A DNA stretch of 64,000 bases from Limimonas halophila (GTDB lineage: Bacteria; Pseudomonadota; Alphaproteobacteria; Kiloniellales; Rhodovibrionaceae): contig NZ_FNCE01000001.1 of assembly GCF_900100655.1 (NCBI RefSeq), positions 310,001 through 374,000 of the forward strand. Reading direction: 5' to 3'. How positions within the stretch are numbered: position 1 is the stretch's first letter; each line of letters opens with the position of its first letter. The position numbers were made by a program, and so were the translations under genes. The notes beneath the pieces were generated by a model. The model saw only the letters and a list, made by a program, of their open reading frames with translations, was not told the origin of the DNA and ran no database searches. Of this stretch, positions 17,525 through 27,859 are shown in pieces.

Positions 17525-18175
17525 TCAGGTCTTCAGCCCCGCGGGGGTGAGGCGGTTCTGCACCCAGAGCAGCCCGTAGTCCGCCAGCACCGCCAGGATG
17601 CTGACGCCGAGCGCCCCGGTGACGAGCTGGCGCGGGTCGGTCTGCGAGATGCCGCGCGCGATGAAGTCGCCCAGGCCGCCCGCGCCGATGTAGGCGGCGA
17701 TGGCGGTGATCCCGATGTTGATGACGACGGCCGTGCGCACGCCCGCCGCGATCACCGGCACGGCCATGGGGATCTCCACCGTGCGCAGGCGCTGGACCGC
17801 CGTCATGCCCATGCCGCGCGCGGCCTCGCGCAGAGCCGGGTCCACGTTGTCGATCGCCGTGTAGGTGTTTCGGATGATCGGCAGCTGCGAATACAGGAAG
17901 AGCGCGATCACCGCCGGCACGTAGCCGATGCCCTGGCCGATCAGCGAGAGGATCGGGATCATCACGCCGAACAGCGCGATCGACGGCACGGTCATGATCA
18001 TGCCGGCCACGTAGAGCACCGCGTCGGCGACCCGGCGGTTCTGGGTGATGGCGATGCCGATGGGCACGCCCGTGGCGATGGCGGCGCCCACCGCGACGAT
18101 GACGAGCGAGATGTGCTCCACCGTGCGCTCGCCGATCAGGTCCAGGTTGTCGACAATGTAGAGCAGGATATCCAC
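17525..18175 (-). CDS. quaternary-amine ABC transporter permease (OpuCB/ProW type), proximal
   Basis: Permease of 216 residues, five to six membrane segments, with the EAA loop EAARGMGMTAVQRLRTVEIP and the conserved SIALFGVMIPIL and GAGGLGDFIARG segments of betaine/choline transporters. It is paralogous to the distal permease at 15617-16348 and probably forms a heterodimer with it. First gene of the operon; the ATPase follows after 43 bases. No substrate-binding protein gene (OpuCC/ProX) lies on either side, so the binding protein must be encoded elsewhere or be missing. Confidence 0.9.
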   Translation of the reverse strand: MDILLYIVDNLDLIGERTVEHISLVIVAVGAAIATGVPIGIAITQNRRVADAVLYVAGMIMTVPSIALFGVMIPILSLIGQGIGYVPAVIALFLYSQLPIIRNTYTAIDNVDPALREAARGMGMTAVQRLRTVEIPMAVPVIAAGVRTAVVINIGITAIAAYIGAGGLGDFIARGISQTDPRQLVTGALGVSILAVLADYGLLWVQNRLTPAGLKT

Positions 18176-24347: not shown

Positions 24348-26063
24348 TCAGGTTGCGCGGATCTGGCCGAGGAAGTTGTCGATCTCCTGCTGCACGGTGT
24401 CGGCCTGAGCCGCGACGCGGTCGGCGCTGTCGGCGACCTGCTGGCCGGTGCGTTCGCCTTCGCCGGCCGAGCTTTCCAGCGCTTCCACGTCCTGGCGCGT
24501 TTGTTCCGCGCCGTTGGACGCGGCCTCGATGTTGCGGGCGATTTCACTGCTCGCCGACGCCTGCTCTTCCACCGAACTGGCGATGGCGGAGGCGATTTCG
24601 TTCACCTTGCGCACGGTTTCGCCGATGCTGCGGATCGCCTCGACGCCCTGCCGCGTCTCGCTCTGGATCGCCTGAATCTGCTGCGAGATCTGCTCCGTCG
24701 CCTTCTGCGTCTGGTTGGCGAGCGACTTCACTTCATCGGCCACCACGGCGAAGCCTTTGCCCGCTTCGCCGGCGCGCGCCGCTTCGATCGTGGCGTTGAG
24801 GGCCAGCAGGTTGGTGCGCTCGGCGATGTCCTGAATGAGCGTCACGACCTCGCCGATGCTCTGCGCGCTCTGGTTCAGCGTTTCGATGCGTTCGTTCGCC
24901 CGCTCGCTCTCGTCCACCGCGCTGCGGGTCATCTCGGTGGATTGCTGGATCTGCGAGCTGATTTCCTGAATGGAGCTTTCCATCTGCGAAACCGAGCTGG
25001 CGACCGTCTTGACGTTTTCCGCGGCCGTCTCGGTATTGCGACTGACCGAGTCGGTCTTTTCCCGAACCGTGGCCGTGACCTGCGTCATGGTCCGGGCGTT
25101 GTCCTGCATCGACTGCGCGGCCTGGGTCAGTTCCTCGAAGGCGCGCTTGACGCTCTGCTCGAAGCGGTTGGCGAGATCCTGACGCGCCTGTTTGCGCTCC
25201 TCGCTGGCGCGCCGGTCCGCTTCCTCCTTCTCGCGCGACAGCCGCTGCATTTCCAGGGTGTTGTCCTTGAAGACCTGGACGGCCCGCGCCATGCCGCCGA
25301 GTTCGTCGCGCCGGTCGGTGCCGGGCACCTCGGTCTCGGTGTCGCCGTCGGCCAGGCGCGTCATGCTGTCGGTCAGCGCGGTCACGGGCCGGCCGATGCT
25401 GCGGGCGATGACGAAGCCGACCAGGGCTAGAAGCACGGCGGCGCCGGCCCCGATCGTGAGCGTCATGGCGCGCATGTTTTCGGCGTTGGCGATCGTGCTT
25501 TGATAAAGCTCCGCCGAGCGCTCGTTGGTGCGCCGCATCGCGTCGGCGACGTGGGTGTTGAGCGTCTCGAACTGCGCGCGCGCCTTCTCCACCTCGTTCA
25601 GGAAGGCGGCCTCGCGGTAGCCCTTGTCGATCTGCTCGCGCGTGTGGGCGATCAGCTTCTTGTAGGCTTGCCAGTGCTCGCGCGTGGCCTCGTAGTGATC
25701 CCGCATGGCGTCCGGCACGCGCTCCCCCCACGCGTCGAACGCGCCGTCGAGCATCTTCACCTGGGCCGGGATCTTCTCGGCGATGCGCGAGCGCGTCTCC
25801 GCGTCCGGGGCCAGCACCAGCGACAACGTCAGCGCGCGCAACCGCCCCAGGGGTTGGGCGATGGTCTGGCCGATCTTCGCCACGTTGTTGCTGGCCGTGT
25901 TCACGCGTTCGAGGCCGTGCATGTTGTGGCTGGAGGTCGCCATGTTAAGGCCGGTCAGCCCGGCCATGCCGGCCACGGCGATGACGACCAGGGCCAGCAG
26001 CTTTGGGCCGATGCGGATGTTGCTCAGCGCGTTTTGAACGGGGCGGAAACCGGGGACGGGCAT
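24348..26063 (-). CDS. methyl-accepting chemotaxis protein
   Basis: Chemoreceptor of 571 residues: membrane helix 1 about residues 21-42, a periplasmic four-helix-bundle sensor of about 155 residues, helix 2 at 200-220, a HAMP domain from about 220 to 275, and the cytoplasmic signalling domain with the hairpin tip [20 protein letters not shown]. No C-terminal CheR-binding pentapeptide is present. The start ATG lies 7 bases after the stop of the solute-binding protein gene, so translation is coupled. The pairing suggests that the binding protein may present ligand to this receptor, as in dipeptide taxis of enteric bacteria. Confidence 0.94.
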
Positions 26064-26070
26064 GGCGGGG

Positions 26071-27789
26071 TCACTCCTCGCGCATGTAATCGGCGTCGCG
26101 GCGGACGATCTTGATGGGGGCGCGGCGTTCGTCCGGCAGCTCGCCCTGGCGCACGGACCAGTGGTATTTGGAGACCTGGACCTTCCACAGCGGCGTCGTC
26201 GCCATGGGGTAGGGGAGGTAGCTGACCTCCTTGTTGACCCCCATCACCTGATTGGGCGCCGGCACGAACAGCATGTAGCCCTGCTCGTGGACGCGGCGCA
26301 TGATCTTTTCCGTGACGCGGTCGAAGGCGTCGGTGCCCACCCGCTCCTTGAAGAGCTGCTGGATGTGGCCGTCGAGCACCTCGTCGCGGAAGATCGTGCT
26401 CCACACGCTCGTCGTTCTGTAGACCAGGAAGACCGACCAGGGGTGGTTGTAGTACCAGTCGTCCATCCCCCAGATCAGCAGATCCCAGTTCTTGGTGTTG
26501 TTGTCGTTGTTGGTGGTGAAGAGCTGGTTGAAGATGTCCTTTTCACTCGTCGTCGTCTCGACATCCAGCGTCACGCCGACGCGTGAGAGCTGATAGGCGA
26601 TGCCGCGCCACAGCCACATGAAGGTTTCCTGGGTGAAGACTTTGAGCGTCAGGCCCTCCAAAATGCCCCGCAACTCTTCCTGCACGGCCGGATCGTAGGG
26701 GTCTTCGCGTTCGGAATAGGGTCGCAGGTCGTCCACCACGTCCTTGACGCCCGGGAAGTAGGGGGCGGCGGTGGTGGGCTTGGTAACGCCTTCGTTCATG
26801 TAGACGAAGGTGAGGAGGTGCGCCTGATGGATGGCGCGGTTGAGGGCGACGCGCACCTCGCGGTCCTGCAGGGCCTCGTGGCCGTTGTGCAGGTTCATGT
26901 GGATGGCGAAATTGTTGGTGCTCTTCGTCGCCACCACCTTGCTGTGCGGCGTGCGCATCGTCTGGATCTTCTTGTGGAAGGGGATGGGCGCGATATCCAG
27001 GTCCCCTTCCGTTTCCTGCACGCGCGTGAGCGCTTCCCGGGTCGTCAGTTCGGTGAAGATCGTGACCTTCTCGACGCGCGGCTCGTCCTCGCGCCAGTAG
27101 TGAGGATTGGCTTCGAGCTTGGCGATCGAGGTCTGCCGGTCGCCTTCCAGGTAGCCCTCGCGCAGGATGAAGGGGCCCAGGCCGTAGGGACCCGGCTCGG
27201 CGAGGTTCGGGCACACCGCCTTGCCGTTCCAGCCGTGCTTGGCGAGGTAGGCGCTGGTGTAAAAGTGCAGCCACAGCAGGTCGTTGACGAACTGGCCGTA
27301 GCGCTCGCTCAGGTGGAAGCGGACGCGGTGGGTGCCCAGCTTTTCCGCGCCCTCCAGCGTCTTGTGCAGCTTGGTGAAGGTGAAGGGCGCCTTCACGAAG
27401 TGCTCGACGTTCTCGACCACGGCGTCCGCGGTGAACGGCGAGCCGTCCTGAAACGTCACGCCCTCGCGCAGCGTGGCCTCGTAGGTCCGCTCGTCCACCT
27501 GGGTGAGCTCGGTGGCGAGGTCGTATTCCCAGCCCTGCGCGGTGGGCGCGGGACGGAGCAGCCCCGCATTGATGGCGTGCGAGGTGTAGATGTAGGGCAG
27601 GTTCGGCAGAAACACTTTCACGTGGGAGCCGGGCGCCAGCGGCTCGGCGAGATGCTCGCCCACATCGTCGTCGCGCAGGCGCAGCGGCTCATAGGTCGTC
27701 ACGGCATCGGCGATGCGCGGGCCGAGCAGACCGGCTGCGGCTGACCCCGTCAACCCCGCCAGAACACGGCGACGGCCAAGGCGCTCCAT
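26071..27789 (-). CDS. family 5 extracellular solute-binding protein with Tat signal
   Basis: Periplasmic peptide/nickel-type binding protein (SBP_bac_5), 572 residues. The signal is a twin-arginine peptide ([20 protein letters not shown]), so it is exported folded. Core family segments include [27 protein letters not shown] and [11 protein letters not shown]. The ATG at 27789 follows GGAGGAAGCG and starts the Tat peptide cleanly; an upstream ATG at 27828 lacks a ribosome site. No permease or ATPase gene is adjacent; instead an MCP gene follows after 7 bases. A perfect CtrA-type box lies 56 bases upstream. Confidence 0.9.
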
Positions 27790-27844
27790 CGCTTCCTCCA
27801 AGCCACCGGACGCTTGTTTCGTAGGCATGGTGGCGTGAGGAAAC

Positions 27845-27859
27845 TTAAGAACGGCTTAA
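27845..27859 (-). promoter_or_regulatory. CtrA-type binding box
   Basis: TTAA-GAACGGC-TTAA is an exact match to the full CtrA consensus TTAA-N7-TTAA. It lies 56 bases before the start of the solute-binding protein gene, at promoter distance. CtrA is an alphaproteobacterial response regulator that in many non-Caulobacter species controls motility and chemotaxis genes, fitting the MCP downstream. Confidence 0.7.

Follow-up and report, generated by a model that had tools for sequence, protein, structure and literature searches.

An SBP–chemoreceptor operon as a probable dedicated two-part chemosensor with exchangeable output

Solute-binding proteins (SBPs) that report to a signalling receptor are an already known kind of sensory system. 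In E. coli, the family-5 SBP DppA works with the four-helix chemoreceptor (MCP) Tap, but also serves the Dpp importer, and the dppA gene does not lie beside tap. SBPs dock at the membrane-distal end in Tar and TorS, the latter being a hybrid kinase whose all-helical sensor domain binds the SBP-type protein TorT. In Vibrio chitin sensing, the family-5 SBP CBP controls the hybrid histidine kinase ChiS, and CBP serves a chitobiose importer as well. XylFII–LytS offers a solved complex (PDB 5xsj) in which an SBP binds the four-helix sensor domain of a kinase; this SBP is of sugar type, belongs to another family and drives a kinase output. In NspS–MbaA, too, a signalling receptor has its own dedicated binding protein (PMC8967002, PMC9993111). 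The SBP of that system is of polyamine type, and its output is a c-di-GMP enzyme. Neighbouring SBP and sensor genes need not work together, and a counter-case has been reported in Pseudomonas aeruginosa (PMC11113362).

Here we describe a family-5 SBP gene and an MCP gene that lie together in a 64 kb stretch of DNA, which was analysed as a whole and is called the window below (Table 1). The best explanation, in which we place high confidence, is an operon for a dedicated SBP–receptor two-part chemosensor whose output is exchangeable and which is probably controlled by CtrA in this genome. Its core, a dedicated SBP–receptor sensor, is strongly supported by comparison of predicted proteins and gene neighbourhoods. 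Exactly 7 bases separate the SBP stop codon from the MCP start, as the preliminary description had it and as the coordinates 26071 and 26063 bear out. Since the Shine-Dalgarno sequence of the receptor gene sits inside the last SBP codons, translation of the two genes is likely to be coupled.

Table 1. Coordinates of the features discussed, as positions in the window
Feature	Position	Strand	Remarks
MCP (chemoreceptor) gene	24348..26063	minus	571 aa; HAMP + MCPsignal; ATG at 26063
MCP signalling domain	24495..24914	minus	Residues 384-523; PF00015 (MCPsignal), 5.4e-30
HAMP domain	25260..25412	minus	Residues 218-268; PF00672, 3.5e-10
Periplasmic four-helix ligand-binding domain	25479..25946	minus	Approximately residues 40-195; candidate domain for SBP docking; kept in 16 adjacent receptors; four-helix model
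SBP gene	26071..27789	minus	SBP_bac_5, family 5; 572 aa; PF00496, 7.8e-38; orthologues 38-57% identical; start codon ATG at 27789, stop codon 26071-26073
MCP Shine-Dalgarno AGGAG	26074..26078	minus	Within the last codons of the SBP gene; read from sequence
Putative Tat signal peptide of SBP	27703..27789	minus	Twin arginine in translation
SBP Shine-Dalgarno GGAGG	27795..27799	minus	Read from sequence
Palindromic CtrA-type box TTAA-N7-TTAA	27845..27859	.	Probable activator site near -35, function inferred

The SBP scores 131 bits against the curated PF00496 cut-off of 32.4. Its scores with the NCBIfam models NikA, GsiB, DppA, SapA and CntA do not exceed 59 bits, below the cut-offs of 393–1005, and membership in NikA, GsiB or DppA was ruled out on these grounds; the score of 25 bits against the DppA cut-off of 1005 sets the present pair apart from DppA–Tap. 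CBP (1zty) is a distant match, with remote sequence similarity only. An upstream start at 27828, where the mechanically called open reading frame opens, was rejected because it lacks a Shine-Dalgarno sequence and lies just 16 bases from the CtrA-type box. A twin-arginine motif can be read in the translated N-terminus, and the alphaproteobacterial orthologue carries MNWINRRFFMAG; the gammaproteobacterial orthologues have Sec-like signals. An AlphaFold model of the SBP built from two sequences reached a pLDDT of 38 and was set aside.

The neighbouring protein is an MCP by its HAMP match (40.5 bits against a Pfam cut-off of 25) and its signalling domain (104.9 against 34.6). Its periplasmic part was modelled from two sequences as a four-helix bundle with moderate confidence (pLDDT 65). 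With 4HB_MCP_1 (PF12729) the window receptor scores 22.3 bits, below the cut-off of 27, and several homologous domains score above it, up to 58 bits. Foldseek matched the model to known four-helix sensors, including Tsr and PcaY, with none below an E-value of 0.001; the LytS domain of XylFII–LytS was matched with a TMt of 0.84 and an E-value of 0.02, and four-helix bundles match one another loosely. A TorS-type identity for the sensor part was dropped as the TorS sensor Pfam model gives no match in the window receptor, a difference from TorT–TorS that is added to the membership of TorT in another SBP family. The invariant receptor residues P71, V83, P86, W131, Y134, T141 and G148 flank the two modelled membrane-distal loops, and membrane-distal positions of this predicted structure are more conserved than the remainder of the domain (Mann-Whitney p 7e-6).

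Orthologues of the SBP, 38–57% identical to it, form a group clearly distinct from ordinary family-5 SBPs, whose identity rises to about 35% and covers part of the length. These orthologues are uncommon. Within the class of the window, 2 of 385 genomes (its own among them) encode one, as do 7 of 399 phylum-wide and 13 of 43 in one gammaproteobacterial order; plasmid records contain no SBP homologue at E 1e-20. We inspected the surroundings of 25 SBP loci, the window included. At 16 of them the SBP adjoins a receptor whose periplasmic part is the same four-helix domain, so that the gene pair, which the preliminary description had proposed to seek in relatives, was recovered. Nine of these receptors are MCPs (window, L001, L032, L097, L098, L118, L122, L124, L127), three of which have added PAS domains, six are hybrid histidine kinases (L027, L028, L099, L117, L123, L128), and one is a plain histidine kinase (L030). 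The hybrid kinases come in two architectures, one with receiver, receiver and Hpt domains (L027 group) and the other arranged as GAF-kinase-receiver (L123 group). The SBP orthologue of a gammaproteobacterial metagenome-assembled genome is paired with a same-domain MCP. In an alphaproteobacterial genome, the SBP orthologue and a same-domain MCP are arranged divergently; gene order is therefore not required, and the partner is kept.

The nine remaining loci are of three kinds. A dCache-type MCP stands beside the SBP at three (L026, L029, L116), of which the L029 dCache match is below the Pfam cut-off and the L026 sensor part has no Pfam match but resembles the other two. These neighbours count against a dedicated pairing in that the four-helix domain is not adjacent everywhere. 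One locus (L031) is truncated by the contig end and has a different hybrid kinase upstream, and five (L119, L120, L121, L125, L126) have no adjacent receptor. At two loci of the last kind (L119:7619-9265 and L121:3640-5304), the SBP adjoins a protein with GAF and HD domains that is c-di-GMP phosphodiesterase-like. The SBP orthologue occupies two reading frames at L029:5483-7056 and L124:5714-7396, through either sequencing error or decay.

Within the gammaproteobacterial order, the association extends to unlinked genes. All 13 SBP-bearing genomes encode the receptor domain (E 2.5e-62 or better), including five in which the receptor is unlinked from the SBP, versus 0 of the 30 SBP-lacking genomes, where the best match is 1.1e-12. 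The domain model was built with sequences from 8 of the 13 genomes and left out the five with unlinked genes, for which the search was a real test. The Fisher figure for this co-occurrence is 2.7e-11, which is overstated because the genomes are related. On an SBP tree of 24 rows, the distribution of MCP and kinase outputs needs only 2 changes, and the unlinked receptors (by Pfam, three MCPs and two histidine kinases) share the output of the clade of their SBP. Distances among SBPs and among receptor domains are correlated (Mantel r 0.90; none of 5000 permutations gave as high a value), to which shared genome ancestry contributes. The SBP and its receptor are thus conserved together across genomes, as expected of SBP-coupled receptor systems.

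The conserved unit is the SBP together with the four-helix domain, and chemotaxis is one form of its output. The preliminary description had read the pair as a sensor for chemotaxis, which holds in this genome; elsewhere, histidine kinases also receive their input through this SBP and sensor domain. According to the mechanism that we propose, the SBP would be exported, probably folded via Tat, and catch its ligand in the periplasm. The ligand-loaded SBP may then dock on the four-helix domain at its membrane-distal tip; the receptor would relay the signal via HAMP to the chemotaxis kinase CheA. In relatives, the same pair of SBP and sensor domain would drive a hybrid or plain histidine kinase, and the two parts can therefore be regarded as a sensory cassette with a replaced output. 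With less assurance, we favour the broader view that SBP and four-helix domain form a split sensor of alpha- and gammaproteobacteria that has given up transport, switched its output between chemotaxis and kinase signalling at least twice, replaced its receptor once by a dCache type, and binds a single conserved ligand. A cassette of this SBP and four-helix domain with changing outputs was not described in the literature that we searched, which is weak evidence of novelty as subscription journals lay mostly outside its scope. In about two dozen genomes, a single SBP family remains associated with a single sensor domain while the output changes, and these pairs provide a natural series for SBP activation of receptors and for the rewiring of sensor modules. 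One ligand screen would be informative for the whole set.

Family-5 SBPs usually serve importers, and one alternative is dual use, in which the SBP feeds both the receptor and an Opp/Dpp-type importer, as DppA does for Tap and Dpp in E. coli. The window genome has five SBP_bac_5 genes and three OppC-type permeases, and the SBP could in principle feed any of these permease sets; yet each stands beside an SBP of its own. In the window, the pair is flanked by genes for an EamA transporter, a short-chain dehydrogenase and an AMP-binding enzyme, and the nearest ABC permease (BPD_transp_1, 17525-18175) is about 6 kb off with other genes between, which agrees with the earlier remark that the SBP gene has no ABC permease or ATPase neighbours. 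Nor does an Opp/Dpp-type importer gene lie immediately beside the SBP at any of the 25 loci, and a search of the SBP loci with the window genome's own permease and ATPase sequences returned no permease; the terminal part of L122 holds a partial Opp-type ATPase, some 5 kb away from the SBP and separated from it by unrelated genes, and L097 contains an exporter-like ABC protein. This absence of an importer operon around the gene, as seen for orphan, non-transport SBPs, and the tracking of SBP presence with the receptor domain make dual use unlikely in our judgement. Alternatively, the receptor might bind its ligand directly, as many four-helix receptors do, among them Tsr and PcaY, which the model resembles; the SBP would then be an independent scavenger that is merely co-regulated. 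Strict co-occurrence even when unlinked, correlated distances and persistence through changes of output are not expected of such a scavenger, and we regard this as very improbable. The same features, with the conserved adjacency and the lack of an adjacent importer, uphold the preliminary reading of the SBP as a dedicated periplasmic ligand sensor that would serve the receptor and not an ABC importer. A dedicated pair that recurs among proteobacteria while its output switches between swimming control and histidine kinases is therefore most likely built for sensing, not for nutrient uptake.

A further alternative bears on regulation alone and leaves the sensor reading intact, namely that the CtrA-type box (minus-strand sequence TTAAGCCGTTCTTAA) matches by chance or has another purpose, and that the operon is CtrA-independent. 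The box announced in the preliminary description is real and is the only perfect TTAA-N7-TTAA in the 64 kb, where shuffles give an expectation of 0.00, although 55 bases and not 56 separate it from the SBP ATG. Genome-wide there are 17 perfect boxes; the reversed-pattern control still yields 5, which leaves room for chance, and the alphaproteobacterial orthologue locus L032 has no perfect box. On the other hand, the genome has a ctrA gene, its protein being 70% identical to a Caulobacter CtrA query, and the distance of the box would fit the -35 region. Other perfect boxes precede a protoglobin MCP, an MCP with a TorS-type sensor domain, a PilZ-MCP gene set, a TadE gene and others. With the window site excluded, 2 of 16 boxes lie directly upstream of MCP genes versus 0.27 expected (P ~0.03, calculated for about 2,850 genes and 24 MCPs). 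No promoter emerged from a sigma-70 scan. The spacing fits the architecture of CtrA-activated promoters described in PMC6180460. CtrA independence thus has an appreciable, if minority, chance of being correct, and activation of the operon by CtrA in this genome is plausible from the predicted box. The earlier proposal of CtrA control is partly supported, by the ctrA gene and the boxes before other MCP genes, and does not extend to L032; such control is likely to be local here and not part of the conserved module.

Some further observations were made in passing. A perfect CtrA box stands ahead of a three-gene set on G000 contig 16, 23313-27230 (L074:3314-7230), which encodes an unassigned 443-aa protein, a 156-aa exported protein that no Pfam model matches, and an MCP with a PilZ domain at its end. 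On G000 contig 1, from 651165 to the contig end (L083), a perfect box directly precedes the MCP that matches the TorS sensor domain, possibly another SBP-dependent receptor. A second Tat-type family-5 SBP with no obvious permease gene near it is encoded on G000 contig 5, 61160-62818 (L077:6161-7819). At L099:7746-13253, the SBP and its hybrid kinase are immediately preceded by a second hybrid kinase of 1835 aa, which has a family-3 SBP domain of its own fused to it.
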